From: Halorubrum sp. GN11_10-6_MGM
GTDB taxonomy: Archaea; Halobacteriota; Halobacteria; Halobacteriales; Haloferacaceae
DNA: 45,044 nt
Assembly: GCF_005435165.1 (NCBI RefSeq)
Contig: NZ_SGUC01000025.1
Location: 1 to 45,044 of the forward strand
Direction: 5' to 3'
Position numbers and translations under genes: made by a program. Shown here piece after piece: positions 2,697-42,007 of the stretch. The notes beneath the pieces were generated by a model. The model was not told the DNA's origin. It did no database searches and worked only from the letters and a program-made list of their open reading frames with translations. Each line of letters starts with the position of its first letter. Position 1 is the stretch's first letter.

Positions 2697-3254
2697 CTAC
2701 TCCCCGCGCCAGCGGCCGCCGATCTCCTCGCGGCGCATGGTGTCGGCCTCGCCGTCGCGGAAGACGCTGACGCGGCCGGTCTCCTCGCTCAGCGTCACGG
2801 TCGCGACGACCTCGGGACGGACGGAGGTCTCGATCGCGCTCATGTGGCGCGACCCCATCCACGGCTCGTAGCTCACGTCGTCGACGAGATCGGTCTCCTC
2901 GTCGCGGGTGCCCAGGTCGCGGAACCTGACCATCTGCGTCTCGATCTCGCCGTCGACCGCGACGACGACGCCCCCGTCCTGCGCGACGCTCACCGACTCG
3001 GCGGCGGTCGCGAGCGCGTCGCCGTCGAAGACGGAGGGCGCGGTGTCGCGCGGCCAGCGGTTGTCGCCCATCGGGTCGGCGTACGCACCGTAGTCGCTGT
3101 CGCCGATGACGGCGAAGTACAGTCCCGGCCCCTTCACGTGCGGCTCCTCCCACCCGTCGAAGGAGACGCTGACGCCCTCGGCGCAGTAGGTCAGGCGGTC
3201 GACGACCTCGCACAGCCGGTCGTGGTCGCCGTAGTCGATGGCGAGGCCGCTCAT
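2697..3254 (-). CDS. dacZ: Diadenylate cyclase DacZ (c-di-AMP synthase)
   Basis: A 185-residue protein with a DisA_N-like (DAC) domain, predicted to join two ATP into cyclic di-AMP. The segment MGSRHMSAIETS around residue 135 matches the GxRHxxA nucleotide-binding motif of diadenylate cyclases. The preceding strand GGVVVAVDG and the region MVRFRDLG fit the other half of the active site. Archaeal DacZ enzymes are of similar short length and act in osmotic control in haloarchaea (family knowledge). The frame stays open to an ATG at 3324-3326, but I start at the ATG at 3252-3254. The TATA box CCTTATATACC (3330-3340) lies too close to the first ATG, and gives a transcript start near 3305 with a leader of about 50 nt. 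The canonical DGA triplet is degenerate here, so function is likely but not certain. Confidence 0.8.
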   Translation of the reverse strand: MSGLAIDYGDHDRLCEVVDRLTYCAEGVSVSFDGWEEPHVKGPGLYFAVIGDSDYGAYADPMGDNRWPRDTAPSVFDGDALATAAESVSVAQDGGVVVAVDGEIETQMVRFRDLGTRDEETDLVDDVSYEPWMGSRHMSAIETSVRPEVVATVTLSEETGRVSVFRDGEADTMRREEIGGRWRGE

Positions 3255-3328
3255 CGCAGTTGGTCCCCCCGGTCCCCCCGTCCGCTGCGGTTGCCGCCGT
3301 TGATCACAGTCGAAGAGACGAGACACCG

Positions 3329-3340
3329 GTATATAAGGGC
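3329..3340 (-). promoter_or_regulatory. TATA box of dacZ
   Basis: The run cggtatataagg is a consensus haloarchaeal TATA box on the minus strand. It places transcription start near 3305. The leader contains two tandem GGTCCCCCC copies (3260-3280 region), which read as G-rich tracts in the RNA. Confidence 0.6.
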
Positions 3341-3426
3341 AACCGAGTCGGTCGGCGCCTCAGGGCCGCGTGCGCTGGCCCGAACGCTCGCTCACGGCCG
3401 TCAGCGCTCACGACACCGAACGCTCG

Positions 3427-4305
3427 CTACCGCCGCCACTGCGTGAACAGCCGCGTGTCGAACCGGTCGGCGCGGACGAGGCCGACCCCGAACGCGGCCG
3501 CGACCGCGGCGGGCAGGAGGTTCCCGAACCAGACGTTGATTCCCCCCCAGAGGATCACGAAGCTCACCATGTCGTCGAGCATGAACTCGCAGTCGCGGAG
3601 TCGCTCGCGGATCCCCGCCTCGGCGAAGGCGCGGTCGAGCGTGACGACGGCGACGATCGCGGACAGCACCCACCCGACATAGTTCGACAGCGGGACGCCG
3701 TAGAACGCGCCGCCGCCGAAGTCCCAGAAGCCGAGCGACACCGCGCCGGGGTCTAAGACGACGTCCATCGCGACGACGACCGGGATCACCGTCGCCAGTC
3801 GGACCCAGACGCTGTCGGCTCGCGGACCGAGCAACAGCAGACACAGCAGGTAGGCGTTCAACACGAGGGGGATGAAGAAGACGGGGAGCGCGACCGGCAC
3901 GCCCGCGAGCATCGGCCCGAGGTCCACGGTGTACGCGAACTCGCCGTACGGCCACCCGGTCGCGACGCCGACCCCCTCGATCAGGTAAGTGTACGCGATC
4001 AGGACGCCGATCCACCCGAGCGCGCGGCGGTCGACCGTCGGTAACACCCCGACGACGAGCGGCGACCGCATCACGATCACGCCGAACAGGACGAACCACG
4101 GGTGGAAGGCGAACGGCTCGGGCACCCACCCCTCAGCGCTGCCGACGAGCGCGAGCGCGCCGACGAGCGGGAAGACGACCGCGATGGTGAAGCGGTTCTC
4201 GCGGACGATCCGGTCGAGCAGCGCCTCCGCCTCGTCGCGCGTGTCGGGCGCGCGCTCGCGGAGCGCGTCGAGCCGCGACCCCGTCGTCGCGGTCGAGTCG
4301 GTCAC
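3427..4305 (-). CDS. cruF: Bisanhydrobacterioruberin hydratase CruF
   Basis: A polytopic membrane protein of 292 residues that adds water to the C2''/C3'' double bonds of bisanhydrobacterioruberin, giving bacterioruberin, the red C50 membrane pigment. Seven or so hydrophobic segments are visible (for example FTIAVVFPLVGALALVG and LGWIGVLIAYTYLIEGVGVA). The patterns GVATGWPYGEFAYT and MDVVLDPGAVSLGFWDF are typical of the CruF/DUF422 carotenoid-hydratase family. The start is a GTG at 4303-4305 whose last bases overlap the TGA of the upstream prenyltransferase (GTGA), so translation is probably coupled. The frame extends further upstream without meaning. It is third in the operon crtD-lyeJ-cruF, in the same order as known haloarchaeal clusters, which strengthens the call. 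Confidence 0.92.
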   Translation of the reverse strand: MTDSTATTGSRLDALRERAPDTRDEAEALLDRIVRENRFTIAVVFPLVGALALVGSAEGWVPEPFAFHPWFVLFGVIVMRSPLVVGVLPTVDRRALGWIGVLIAYTYLIEGVGVATGWPYGEFAYTVDLGPMLAGVPVALPVFFIPLVLNAYLLCLLLLGPRADSVWVRLATVIPVVVAMDVVLDPGAVSLGFWDFGGGAFYGVPLSNYVGWVLSAIVAVVTLDRAFAEAGIRERLRDCEFMLDDMVSFVILWGGINVWFGNLLPAAVAAAFGVGLVRADRFDTRLFTQWRR

Positions 4306-7648: not shown

Positions 7649-7740
7649 GGGTAGATTGGGCTCGGGTCGGCGGGGAAGGGCGCTATGACTCCAGTCGCTC
7701 GTTTGTAAATATCCGATCGCGGATTGGCGCTGAACACCGC

Positions 7741-7854
7741 CAAAGCCCCAGTCGCGAGGACGACCCTCGACGACGCAAGGACCGCAAGGAGCGAGCGAAG
7801 CGAGCGACTGAGGACCGCAGCGAGTCGCGGGTCGTCCTCGCGACTGGGGCTTTG
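7741..7854. repeat. 25-bp perfect inverted repeat bracketing GCGAGCGAAGCGAGCG
   Basis: The left arm 7741-7765 starts CAAAGCCCCAGTCGCGAG. The right arm 7830-7854 is its exact reverse complement. The 64-bp spacer is made of short related words (gcgagcgaag, cgagcgactgagg, cgcagcgag). Similar words occur downstream of element B at 31360-31420, so this belongs to a dispersed repeat family. It forms the 3' part of element A when read on the minus strand. It is not a tandem or CRISPR repeat. Confidence 0.8.
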
Positions 7855-8005
7855 AGTCCCACCCCGCACCGCAACCGCACGGCACCTCACGCCTCCCCAG
7901 CCTCGTCGGCGGCTCCCGATGGTCGCCGCCGACTCCCTCGCGCGGTGCTCCTCGGCCGCACCGCGGCCTCGGAGGCACGCGCCACCGCAGTTGTTGTTTA
8001 TAAGT
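7741..8005 (-). ncRNA. Structured repeat element A, candidate multicopy RNA
   Basis: Read on the minus strand, a TATA-like CTTATAAAC (7997-8005) precedes a block that matches element B (31112-31440) in long stretches: GGTGGCGCGTGCCT (from 7986), the hairpin GGCCGC-GGT-GCGGCC, GCGCGAGGGAGTCG, CGACGAGGCTGGGGAGG and GGGACTC near 7856. Between the last two big blocks both copies have a hairpin at the same place, with different bases but intact pairing: here GTCGGCGGC pairs with GCCGCCGAC. That is the mark of a selected RNA structure. The element ends in the 25-bp inverted repeat. No convincing protein is encoded; the frames across it are arginine-rich and lack start signals. This fills the whole gap between the two dehydrogenase genes. 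An inert mobile palindromic repeat is the alternative. Confidence 0.6.
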
Positions 8006-27533: not shown

Positions 27534-28886
27534 TCACGCCCGGTCGTCGGTCGAGTTGCCGGCCGAGTCGTCGGTCGAGTTGCCGGCCGAGTCGTCGGTC
27601 GAGTTGCCGGCCGAGTCGTCGGTCGAGTTGCCGGCCGAGTCGTCGGTCGAGTTGCCGGCCGAGTCGTCGGCGACGGGGACCTCCCAGCGGAGGATCGCCG
27701 CCGACCCGACGACGAGGACGGCGCCGCCGACGCCCAGCGCGAACAGCGGGGAGACGGCGTCCGAGACGACGCCGCTGCCCAGCTGGAACGGGATGACCGC
27801 GAGGCCGCTGACCATCGCCATCGCGCTCAGGACGGTCGCGCGACCGAGCGACTCCGCCCGATCGTTGACGTACTGGCCGGCGAACGACCGCGTGACGTCG
27901 GACACGCCGCGGATCAGGAGGAACGTCGGGATGGCGAGGATCGGGAGGAAGTACATCCCGATCAGCGCGCCGCCGACGGCGAACGGGAGGACGATAAACC
28001 ACGTCCGCAGCCCGATCCGCTCCCGGATCGCCCCCGTGTAGTAGTTGAGCACCGCGCCGACGAGGCTGTACGCCGCGTAGAACCACCCCAGCAGGGCCTC
28101 CACCTGCGACTGTCGGATGCCGAGGTCGATGACGACCGTCTCGAAGATCGGCTGAAGGAAGACGAACACGAGGTACGTGACCGCGGCGTAGAGGACGTAG
28201 TAGTACAGCAGCAGCGACCGCAGCCGACGGCGCGAGAGAACCTCTCTCACGATACCGACCGTCCGGCGGAGGCCCAGGTCCGCCGAATCGGTCTCCTCGT
28301 ACGTCTCGGGCTCGTCGAGCGTGAGCAGCACCGCGACGCCGAGGCTCGTCACGCCCGCCGCGACGAACCACGGGTACGAGAGGTCGATGCCGCCGAGGTA
28401 TCCGCCGAGGATCGCCGCGACGGCGCCGACGGCCAGCGCCGCCGACTCCCCGCGGCCCCGGACGCGGGCGAACTCGTCCTCGGAGAGGTCGTCGGTGAGC
28501 GTGTCGTAGAGCCACGCGTCCTCGCTGCCGGACCGGAAGTTGTAGCCCAGCGACCAGCAGACGTAGAGGCCGGCCAGCGCGAGGAACGAGCTCGACAACT
28601 CGATACCGAGGAGCGTCACGGAGATGAGCGCGGTGCCGACGAGGAGGCTGTTGCGTCGCCCGACGCGGTCGCCGACGTAGCCGGTCGGGATCTCGCCGAA
28701 CAGCGTTGTCAGGTTATACAGCGCCTCCAGAACGGCGATCTGCGTGAACGAGAGCCCCTGCGCCAGGAAGAAGAGGTACATGACCGGCCGATAGAACTCG
28801 ACCGCCTTCGTCGCCTTGTAGACGTAGTACTTCGCGATGTTGCCGGAGAGCGTTCCTCCGAGACCGTCATCGGTGCTACTCGCCAT
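27534..28886 (-). CDS. MFS transporter with an octapeptide-repeat tail
   Basis: A 450-residue major facilitator protein with about 12 helices. Loop 2-3 shows GEIPTGYVGDRVGRRNSLLVGTAL, the MFS G-x3-D-x2-G-R-R-x motif. Helices continue to GVGGAVLVVGSAAILRWEVPVADD. The last 46 residues are cytosolic and consist of DDSAGNST repeated five times, ending in DDRA; the repeat is coded by five identical 24-bp DNA units. I start at the ATG at 28884-28886. Pairing with the ATP-grasp ligase (stops 30 bp apart) is convergent and need not mean joint function. Substrate unknown; drug or metabolite export is plausible. Confidence 0.88.
   Translation of the reverse strand: MASSTDDGLGGTLSGNIAKYYVYKATKAVEFYRPVMYLFFLAQGLSFTQIAVLEALYNLTTLFGEIPTGYVGDRVGRRNSLLVGTALISVTLLGIELSSSFLALAGLYVCWSLGYNFRSGSEDAWLYDTLTDDLSEDEFARVRGRGESAALAVGAVAAILGGYLGGIDLSYPWFVAAGVTSLGVAVLLTLDEPETYEETDSADLGLRRTVGIVREVLSRRRLRSLLLYYYVLYAAVTYLVFVFLQPIFETVVIDLGIRQSQVEALLGWFYAAYSLVGAVLNYYTGAIRERIGLRTWFIVLPFAVGGALIGMYFLPILAIPTFLLIRGVSDVTRSFAGQYVNDRAESLGRATVLSAMAMVSGLAVIPFQLGSGVVSDAVSPLFALGVGGAVLVVGSAAILRWEVPVADDSAGNSTDDSAGNSTDDSAGNSTDDSAGNSTDDSAGNSTDDRA
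27543..27670. repeat. Five identical 24-bp tandem repeats inside the MFS gene
   Basis: The unit GTCGTCGGTCGAGTTGCC-GGCCGA fills 27543-27566, 27567-27590, 27591-27614, 27615-27638 and 27639-27662, with an 8-bp partial unit after. Copies show no base change, even at third positions, so the array is young or homogenised. The unit length is a multiple of three, so copy number can change without frameshift. Confidence 0.95.
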
Positions 28887-30700: not shown

Positions 30701-31120
30701 ATGTCAGATCAACCGAGCGACCGCGAGACGACGAGCGCGCCCGACACCGACTCGCGCTTCGACGTCCCCCTCCGCGGAATCGATGTCGATCCCGAGACGC
30801 GCTGCGCGCACTGGGACGACGTGGTCGACGTGATCGCGCTCCGGTTCGGCTGCTGTGGGACGTACTACCCCTGCGACGCCTGTCACGACGCGGCCGCCGA
30901 CCACGAGGCGGTCCCGTGGCCCCGCGAGCGGTTCGACGAGCCGGCGGTGCTGTGTGGCGCCTGCGGAACGACGCTCACCGCCCGGCAGTACCTCGAAGCC
31001 GACGGCGACGCTTGTCCCGCGTGCGGGGTCGCATTCAATTCGGGTTGTCGGAAACATCGCGACCGGTACTTCGAAATCGAAGACGCGGGAGCGTCCGGGA
31101 GCGACGACGAGAATATATAA
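30701..31120 (+). CDS. CHY zinc-finger protein
   Basis: A 139-residue zf-CHY protein. The family order is visible: CAHW (Cys-x-His), CCGTYYPCDACHDAAADHE, then LCGACGTTLTARQYLE, and ACPACGVAFNSGCRKHRDRYFEI. The four-to-five Cys/His clusters suggest three Zn ions. In eukaryotes CHY domains occur in ubiquitin ligases (and in mitochondrial import factor Hot13). In archaea the role is unknown, possibly redox or metal handling. Upstream trmY is 11 bp away, so they are an operon. The stop TAA lies inside AATATATAAG, the TATA box proposed for element B. Start ATG at 30701. Confidence 0.88.
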   Translation: MSDQPSDRETTSAPDTDSRFDVPLRGIDVDPETRCAHWDDVVDVIALRFGCCGTYYPCDACHDAAADHEAVPWPRERFDEPAVLCGACGTTLTARQYLEADGDACPACGVAFNSGCRKHRDRYFEIEDAGASGSDDENI

Positions 31121-31440
31121 GTCGAACAGGCGGTGTGGTGGCGCGTGCCTATGAGGCCGCATCGCGGCCGAGTAGCACGCGCGAGGGAGTCGACCGGTCG
31201 GAGCGAAGCGGAGACCGGTCGACGAGGCTGGGGAGGAACGAGGCTGCGGTGCTGCGCGGGGACGGGATTCGAAGGGGCAGTCGCCGGCGGCTCCGCCGCC
31301 GGCTGCCCGTGGCGCGTCGTGCCACGCTGCCGCGAGGAGGAAGACGCGCGACGTAAGCACCGCAACGAGGGAGCGAAGCGACCGAGTGAGGAGCACAGCG
31401 AGCGCATCGACTCCTCCCGGCTGGGGCTTCGGTGGTCGTG
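31112..31440 (+). ncRNA. Structured repeat element B, candidate multicopy RNA
   Basis: A TATA box (AATATATAAG, 31112-31121) overlaps the stop of the CHY gene. About 21 bp on comes GGTGGCGCGTGCCT (31137-31150), then hairpin GGCCGC-ATC-GCGGCC, GCGCGAGGGAGTCG, a long hairpin, CGACGAGGCTGGGGAGG and GGGATTC. All but the hairpin match element A (7741-8005). In the long hairpin the stem GTCGACCGGTC pairs with GACCGGTCGAC; element A has a different but equally perfect stem there. A second hairpin GCCGGCGGC-TCC-GCCGCCGGC (31283-31303) follows. Downstream words such as gagcgaagcg and cagcgagcg recur as in A. No credible protein frame. Between 31441 and the tRNA-Pro I see only a hairpin (GACAGCGGCGCTGTC) and no gene. 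Confidence 0.6.
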
Positions 31441-31597
31441 TTCCCGGGAAGAGTTTCGTCGCAGCGAGCGACTGAGGCTTCGAGAGTTCTCGCACCGAAA
31501 TCGAACCAACACGAATCACGCGTTGTCTCCGGGACAGCGGCGCTGTCGGTCTCCCGATACGGTGTCCGGCCATGGCGTACCGCCCCCTTTCGGAAGG

Positions 31598-31629: not shown

Positions 31630-31702
31630 GGGCCGGTGGGGTAGCTTGGTATCCTTCGGCCTTCGGGTGGCCGTAACCACGATTCAAATTCGTGCCGGCC
31701 CA
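31630..31702 (+). tRNA. tRNA-Pro (anticodon CGG)
   Basis: Acceptor arms GGGCCGG and CCGGCCC pair fully, with discriminator A and no encoded CCA. Anticodon stem CGGCC/GGCCG holds loop TTCGGGT, so the anticodon is CGG, reading codon CCG. T-arm CACGA-TTCAAAT-TCGTG and the D-loop with A14, GG and A21 are normal. Length 73 nt, no intron. A T-rich run (ctttttcc) at about 31714 can end the transcript. Confidence 0.95.
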
Positions 31703-31790
31703 CTACCCCCTTATACTTTTTCCAGCCTCTACTGACGGATTTTAGCGTCTCCACGGGCGGTCTCGGGATCGGTCGAACCGCGTTCGTCGG

Positions 31791-41203: not shown

Positions 41204-41331
41204 ACCGCCTCACCGCCTCACCGCCTCACCGCCTCACCGCCTCACCGCCTCACCGCCTCACCGCCTCACCGCCTCACCGCCTCACCGCCTCACCGCCTCA
41301 CCGCCTCACCGCCTCACCGCCTCACCGTCTC
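41204..41331. repeat. 8-bp microsatellite ACCGCCTC, 15 perfect copies plus one variant
   Basis: ACCGCCTC repeats without a break from 41204 to 41323 (120 bp), followed by the variant ACCGTCTC (41324-41331). An 8-bp unit is not a multiple of three. The right end supplies the TGA stop of the minus-strand gene at 41322. The array fills the convergent space between two genes. Slippage would shift no frame in the first gene but could change the second gene's end only if the last copies altered. Confidence 0.97.
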
Positions 41332-41932: not shown

Positions 41933-42007
41933 GGGTTGGTGGTCTAGCCAGGTTATGACGGCTCCTTCACACGGAGCAGGCCGGCGGTTCGAATCCGCCC
42001 CAACCCA
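41933..42007 (+). tRNA. tRNA-Val (anticodon CAC)
   Basis: Acceptor GGGTTGG pairs with CCAACCC, discriminator A, no CCA. Anticodon stem GCTCC/GGAGC holds loop TTCACAC; the anticodon CAC reads GTG. T-arm GGCGG-TTCGAAT-CCGCC is perfect. 75 nt, no intron. A TATA-like CTTAAG lies at 41899-41904. The GC content falls directly downstream, and a partial copy of its 3' half lies at 42223-42271. Confidence 0.96.

Follow-up and report, generated by a model that had tools for sequence, protein, structure and literature searches.

A Halobacteria-wide family of structured, non-coding elements that mostly keep their genomic sites and exchange their hairpins

The BOX, Correia and REP/BIME repeats of bacteria are modular, structured, intergenic and present in high copy number, and the stand-alone HEARO RNAs and the omega RNAs of IscB and TnpB are structured RNA elements able to outnumber their protein partner. 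In the archaeon Haloquadratum walsbyi, PATEs, MITEs and SMRs are described as dispersed, short, palindrome-rich elements devoid of transposase, with tens to hundreds of copies per genome (PMC3119063). Concerted evolution and gene conversion have also been reported in polyploid haloarchaea, between chromosome copies or between genes (PMC8223754, PMC4056108).

The window studied here, i.e. the whole stretch of 45,044 nucleotides analysed from Halorubrum sp. GN11_10-6_MGM, contains two copies of an element, which we call element B (31137-31436, + strand) and element A (7736-7986, - strand). Like PATEs, MITEs and SMRs, this element is dispersed, palindrome-rich, transposase-free and short, its length of about 260-300 bp being too small for a transposase gene. 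Unlike them, its common unit lacks inverted ends and shows no link with IS605/TnpB loci, its fold includes conserved non-standard motifs, its sites are kept between species and its hairpins are exchanged in place. It also differs from BOX, Correia and REP/BIME repeats, as these are commonly described, in being archaeal, in its unrelated words, in its larger fold and in the reshuffling of its contents at fixed sites. In contrast to HEARO and omega RNAs, it has no Rfam match, is not enriched near TnpB genes and has no protein partner among our findings. With the gene conversion described in haloarchaea it would share a mechanism that copies sequence between homologous stretches, although we propose here that this mechanism acts between dispersed short repeats, through conserved blocks of 10-20 bp.

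The gene upstream of element B (30701-31120, + strand), delimited from its reading frame, 34 relatives and the stop codons of its orthologues, encodes a CHY zinc-finger-like protein, a name given by an earlier note made from the sequence only. Its stop codon TAA (31118-31120) lies inside a TATA-like AT box, AATATATAAG (31112-31121, + strand), which marks the left edge of the element in its Halorubrum form. The conserved head word GGTGGCGCGTGCCT (31137-31150) begins 21 bp after position 31116, in agreement with that note. The head includes a P1/P2 hairpin (31141-31182), formed by the P1 arms 31141-31152 and 31172-31182 and the P2 arms 31155-31160 and 31164-31169, with a tandem G-A motif of the CGAG/CGAG type between them (31153-31154 facing 31170-31171). 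Then comes the hypervariable stem P3 (31187-31225), whose base is a second G-A pair (31187-31188 with 31224-31225) and whose arms are GTCGACCGGTC (31189-31199) and GACCGGTCGAC (31213-31223), followed by the conserved core GGCTGGGGAGG (31226-31236). The tail stem P4 (31270-31431) starts with CGAAG-GGG at 31270, finishes with GGG-CTTCG at 31431 and includes a conserved GGG/GGG internal loop. It contains a small insertion of two hairpins (31283-31330), GCCGGCGGC/GCCGCCGGC and CGTGGC../GCCACG, which constitutes a separate mini-element; the extra perfect hairpin previously seen at 31283-31303 belongs to this region. The right end (31432-31490) holds one decayed 3' repeat unit, GAGCGACTGAGGCTTCG, and the tRNA-Pro gene (31630-31703) provides the right flank of the syntenic interval used for species comparison. 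All these features of element B are on the + strand.

On re-reading of the sequence, all the coordinates given earlier for this region were correct, and the observation on element B is confirmed with a larger scope than had been claimed, while its interpretation is partly supported. The word GAGCGAAGCG, which had been noticed behind both elements, occurs at 31201 and 31371, and also on the + strand at 7793 within the minus-strand element A. The suggested modular organisation, in which a structured but variable tail follows a conserved head, is common to both elements of the window and to about 120 genomic copies. Most copies share a left edge 2-4 nt before GGTGG (-2 to -4 from the head word) and a right edge near +247 to +261. 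The long stem attributed to element B does exist (31189-31199/31213-31223) but it is not peculiar to this copy, each copy bearing one stem of a shuffling pool.

We then estimated the size of the family. A 371-bp query (31090-31460) gave at least 63 matching pieces in its own genome, 40 out of 239 candidates being scored. The 20-nt core GAGGCTGGGGAGGCGTGAGG, allowing up to 3 mismatches, was found 123 times in this genome (G000) and in all 52 Halorubrum genomes, with 9 to 196 matches each; the reversed pattern gave 0 match in G000 and 0-6 across the genus. R1, a covariance model of the head with 145 positions and 25 pairs, was built from 36 of the 40 collected heads, L003, L033, L037 and L042 being omitted. 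At E<=1e-4, it matched 99 of the 293 genomes of the order, 19 of them being the own genome and its genus, and the other 80 belonging to the 274 haloarchaeal genomes outside Halorubrum. Matches were present in 28 out of 87 genera, Halorubrum included; the counts per genome are lower bounds, with at most 10 candidates scored in each. Eleven genomes searched again had 1 to 56 matches each, and 30 of their loci show, whole or in part, the same order of blocks: GTGGCGCG, a hairpin, GCGAGGGA, a variable stem and GGYTGGGGAGG, followed in 11 of the 30 loci of other genera by the tail GAAAGGGGC...GGGGCTTTC. The element is non-coding, and its stems of variable length break any common reading frame. A scan of the window with Rfam matched only the tRNA at 41933-42007, and the element itself matched no Rfam family (best sub-threshold match with an E of 0.42, far below the gathering score). 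No description of the family was found in the mainly open-access literature searched, which included PMC5496347, PMC10927574, PMC6011602, PMC4500146, PMC3119063 and PMC4983044, and this literature also yielded no map of transcription start sites for Halorubrum. The family is large, widespread, structured and non-coding, most abundant in Halorubrum and distributed throughout Halobacteria. Spread by viruses was dropped as an explanation, with no match in phages and no exact core match in viral contigs (viral_contigs), and so was spread by plasmids, which gave only partial matches in 5 and 6 records out of 72,556.

The fold was examined in the 36 aligned heads. As copies share ancestry, the cells of the pair counts are non-independent events; 93.4% of them are paired, compared with 77.8% after shuffling and 23-47% when the alignment is slid. 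Changes on both sides were observed in 15 of the 25 head pairs. P1 and P2 are paired in 98.7% of cells, and in the symmetric CGAG/CGAG-type motif that separates them the G and the A of the 5' side are invariant, the 3' side being nearly so. A reading of this loop as a kink-turn was dropped, since the loop is symmetric. The median number of uninterrupted outer pairs in P3 is 9 over 85 copies, 77 of which have six or more, versus a median of 4 pairs and 18% with six or more when its halves are exchanged between copies. The GGG/GGG loop of the tail is present in 78 out of 85 copies of three genomes and in 11 out of 30 copies of other genera. Directly above it, these 78 copies have medians of 14 to 19 uninterrupted pairs, for a median of 0 in the arm-swap control. 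The tail insert of element A is inverted as a whole, which turns the GGG/GGG loop into a perfect CCC/GGG stem. We also observed that in element A (7736-7986, - strand) and in one copy of genome G029 (L181:4227-4841), the left side of the tail reads AAAGCCCC in place of AAAGGGGC, giving a perfect stem.

The predicted fold of the + strand of element B includes the P1/P2, P3 and tail helices (z -3.45). The minus strand also folds well (z -4.38), good folding of both strands being expected of any palindrome-rich DNA. The imperfect pairs are more informative about the strand. In P1 and P2 together, 14 G-U and 0 A-C pairs were counted in one alignment (A1) and 11 G-U and 0 A-C in another (A2), counts that suggest folding of the + strand. 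In the tail, there are 20 G-U and 8 A-C pairs. For P3, a gapless count gives 7 G-U and 2 A-C, but the columns of A1 show the reverse (1 G-U, 7 A-C), an excess that we ascribe, as an unproven explanation, to misaligned variant stems. With the exception of these P3 columns, the family shows covarying helices with strand-specific tolerance of G-U pairs, as structured RNAs do. A + strand RNA, or a single DNA strand of + polarity, explains the bias between G-U and A-C pairs; a double-stranded cruciform does not. The + strand bias in the imperfect pairs of P1/P2 therefore makes RNA likelier than a DNA cruciform.

In the interval between the CHY gene and tRNA-Pro, the element has the same place and orientation in 12 out of 34 related loci, of which 11 are R1 matches and the twelfth ends at a contig edge. 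Two copies at this interval (L034, L041) are decayed or rearranged. The element is absent from 14 other loci with readable CHY ends, and the remaining 8 more distant genomes do not have it in the stretch shown. P3 is almost wholly different between most of the species that share the element at this place. Across 400 kb of two other genomes, G022 and G048, 23 out of 27 R1 matches have a counterpart at the same site, with flanks 92.7% identical. Three of the other four G022 sites map to G048 without a match there, one of them holding a truncated remnant, and the last is unmappable. Copies thus mostly remain at old insertion sites. The hairpins, on the other hand, are hardly more alike between counterparts than between non-orthologous copies of these two genomes, with median identities of 0.68 and 0.65, respectively, for P3, 0.76 and 0.72 for P2, and 0.76 for both in the tail.

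The modules also form a mosaic. One site has an identical P3 but a replaced P2 and tail, a second retains P2 with a replaced P3, and a third retains everything. Two further pairs of genomes, with 15 and 16 shared sites, agree in kind. Elsewhere, the same small and unusual change in P1 is common to five species at one site, and these species carry three different P3 stems. For this site, the simplest account is a single old insertion followed by replacement of P3. Exact P3 stems recur across sites and genomes, 12 stems covering 38 of 85 copies, while tails never recur (79 distinct out of 79). No significant association was found between the length class of P2 and the class of P3 (mutual information 0.24 against 0.185 after shuffling, with 11% of shuffles as high). 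The hairpins are therefore replaced from a common pool, largely independently of one another. Gene conversion between copies, in polyploid and recombinogenic cells and with cross-overs in the conserved blocks, is the likely route of this exchange. Part of the turnover may nevertheless be replacement of the whole element, as the adjoining 60 bp have also diverged on both sides (medians of 0.68-0.83 between counterparts) and as the comparison between G048 and G029 shows more retention, with P2 in 7 and P3 in 6 out of 14 at 0.9 identity or more.

The AT box is positioned and not random. In 54 out of 84 copies of three Halorubrum genomes, its hexamer terminates 6-20 nt before the head, for 1 (-35 to -21), 5 (-85 to -61) and 1 (-114 to -86) out of 84 in control windows. 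A further box, more distal (-60 to -35), occurs in 26 out of 84 copies. In the element-bearing loci, the stop codon of the CHY gene is a TAA within T(T/C)ATAA in all 11 orthologues read by script, with the same reading by eye for L031, which is outside this count. By comparison, the 14 element-free orthologues stop with TGA (12) or TAA (2), and 13 of them terminate some twelve residues sooner. The AT box thus became the stop codon and the C-terminal end of the CHY gene at this locus, and it has probably served as such since before these species split. The fusion of a TATA-like box with the stop codon, noticed earlier, stands, but the suggestion that a separate RNA could begin at the very end of the gene, ahead of the core, is not supported in that form. 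A reading in which the box is a promoter and the core forms the 5' end of the RNA draws on the positioning of the box and on its retention in the CHY orthologues. Most haloarchaeal mRNAs are leaderless, and in 240 genes of G022 with free upstream space the distance from the end of the AT hexamer to the start codon is 20-28 nt, most often 25. The box of the element lies closer, its end being usually 7-12 nt from the head, and 17 nt in element B, instead of 20-28 nt from the first conserved base. A spacing of 25 nt predicts initiation at +9 of the head in element B (~31145), inside the 5' arm of P1, and a typical copy would start at about +16, within or just past this arm. The predicted start, some 9-16 nt into the head, would thus leave out a large part of the 5' arm of P1. 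Moreover, the box is missing in about a third of the Halorubrum copies and from 28 out of 30 copies of other genera, a stricter AT octamer being found in 2 of these 30, against 14 out of 31 in G000 and 21 out of 27 in G022. We hence regard initiation at the gene end, with the core as 5' end, as distinctly unlikely, and the box in the stop codon is not evidence for it. Separate transcription is plausible but unproven; a distal box, where present, would yield an RNA with the whole fold.

The common unit, of about 260 bp, spans TGCGGTGG to GGCGGTG, one subfamily reaching further. No inverted repeat was detected at its ends, and the terminal inverted repeats with target duplication that define MITEs were not found for it. 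One copy of G048 (L172:1422-1568; G048:C1 ~1768568, minus strand) lies inside a MITE-like unit of about 600 bp whose inverted ends are of the CTGTTGAA type and whose insertion probably duplicated 9 bp of the target; the site is empty in G022 and G029. The element seems to travel as a passenger in this unit. This was the best candidate for a clean empty site that would define the ends of the element, and it was rejected as the insertion of a longer unit carrying a copy; in a second candidate (G000, G025, G006, G008, G036), about 870 bp were replaced along with the element, so that no ends could be defined. TnpB loci are not enriched in the element, with 3 matches in 20 loci (62 kb) for about 2.3 expected from 123 copies in 3.3 Mb. 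An origin as a remnant or an RNA of IS605/TnpB elements was therefore dropped on this test of nearness.

How, then, should the family be explained? We consider it somewhat probable that element B is a copy of a structured family whose fold is most likely selected in RNA, either as a multi-copy RNA gene or as an RNA-bearing repeat of mobile origin, the hairpins being reshuffled by gene conversion. It might instead be a mobile repeat acting at the DNA level, of the MITE or PATE type and moved by a transposase in trans, whose hairpins are DNA palindromes kept perfect by strand switching, with no RNA involved. The large number of intergenic copies dispersed in both orientations, the AT boxes in the tandem 3' units and the copy within the 600-bp unit speak for it, as does the abundance of transposase-free MITEs, PATEs and SMRs in Haloquadratum (PMC3119063). 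However, if strand switching perfects palindromes, G-U without A-C pairs in P1/P2 and conserved GA/GA and GGG/GGG mismatches are unexpected; the 23 of 27 sites common to two species also indicate little recent movement, and neither inverted ends in the common unit nor enrichment at TnpB loci was found. We thus hold a DNA-level repeat to be a possible but rather unlikely explanation. A retroelement, SINE-like and spread through its RNA, would account for the RNA-like fold, the constant 5' boundary and the variable 3' end. Reverse transcriptase (PF00078) was detected in none of the 52 Halorubrum genomes, the control search being positive in 3 out of 14 known genomes. This makes a retroelement extremely improbable and nearly refutes it for present-day Halorubrum, where an ancient or foreign enzyme could still have acted.

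The element could also belong to gene boundaries, as a terminator, a 3' processing signal or an insulating structure in the manner of REP/BIME. Its stems are strong, 24 out of 25 motif-found copies are located between genes and, by eye, many copies of other genera directly follow a stop codon. With crude gene calls (76% coding coverage) and one of the 25 elements (385680) not being an R1 match, the upstream gene is co-oriented with the element in 15 out of 24 cases, i.e. no clear preference, and four copies, one of them a doubtful match, stand between divergent genes. In addition, no conserved T-run follows the tail (by eye) and the conservation of the head is far above what a terminator needs. 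A boundary function is therefore very unlikely, and a terminator or 3'-UTR of the upstream gene was rejected as the main reading given the mixed orientation. The reading that we favour, selection of the fold in RNA, also meets contrary observations: the spacing of the box is wrong for an RNA starting at the head and other genera mostly have no box; more than 100 copies without clear orientation preference are common for a repeat but not for a functional RNA; and the retention between G048 and G029, the diverged 60-bp flanks, the 7 A-C pairs of P3 in A1 and the fold of the minus strand count against it. Under this favoured reading, the family would have begun as a mobile element. Transcription may start nearly 30 bp downstream of the AT box, inside P1, and the + strand would fold around the GGCTGGGGAGG core into P1/P2 with its tandem G-A motif, P3 on the second G-A pair and the GGG/GGG tail stem. 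The selected molecule would be RNA, a single + strand of DNA being the alternative.

This unannotated structured element, which is present throughout the genus and beyond, is absent from Rfam and evolves by swaps of whole hairpins at fixed places, would make up about 1% of a typical Halorubrum genome. The family provides thousands of naturally occurring compensatory variants from which one fold can be solved, would allow gene conversion between dispersed repeats to be read directly in polyploid archaea, and explains why some genes, like the CHY gene, have altered ends. The surroundings of the box appear more interesting than the single box itself. An unlikely but far-reaching extension is that these elements form a large unrecognised class of multi-copy RNA genes working as a combinatorial cassette system, with 100 or more fixed sites per genome, one fold, and P2, P3 and tail continually exchanged. 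If so, the set of structured RNAs expressed would differ from one lineage to the next, much as proteins vary through antigenic-variation loci, and the conserved G-tracts could add G-quadruplex folds in the K+-rich cytoplasm.

Finally, other repeats were observed. In Halorubrum as well as in other genera, the element's 3' end occurs as tandem repeats of about 55-75 bp, each of which contains GGGGCTTTGG-like words and often also TTTATAA; such units were seen at L030:1740-1870, L031:3750-3900, in G022 at 258799 and 386214, and in L094. The window also has a tandem repeat of the 24-bp unit GCCGAGTCGTCGGTCGAGTTGCCG (27538-27690) and, immediately downstream of a reading frame, an array of about 15 copies of the 8-mer ACCGCCTC (41204-41330). 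Hairpin-pair mini-elements, with units of about 25 nt of the type TGYC-hairpin-CGAC / CTCTGGCAG-hairpin, are found within copies of the element, as in the window at 31283-31330, and in frame within the CHY genes of several Halorubrum species (L041, L043, L045, L046, L049, L051, L055; ~3250-3550).
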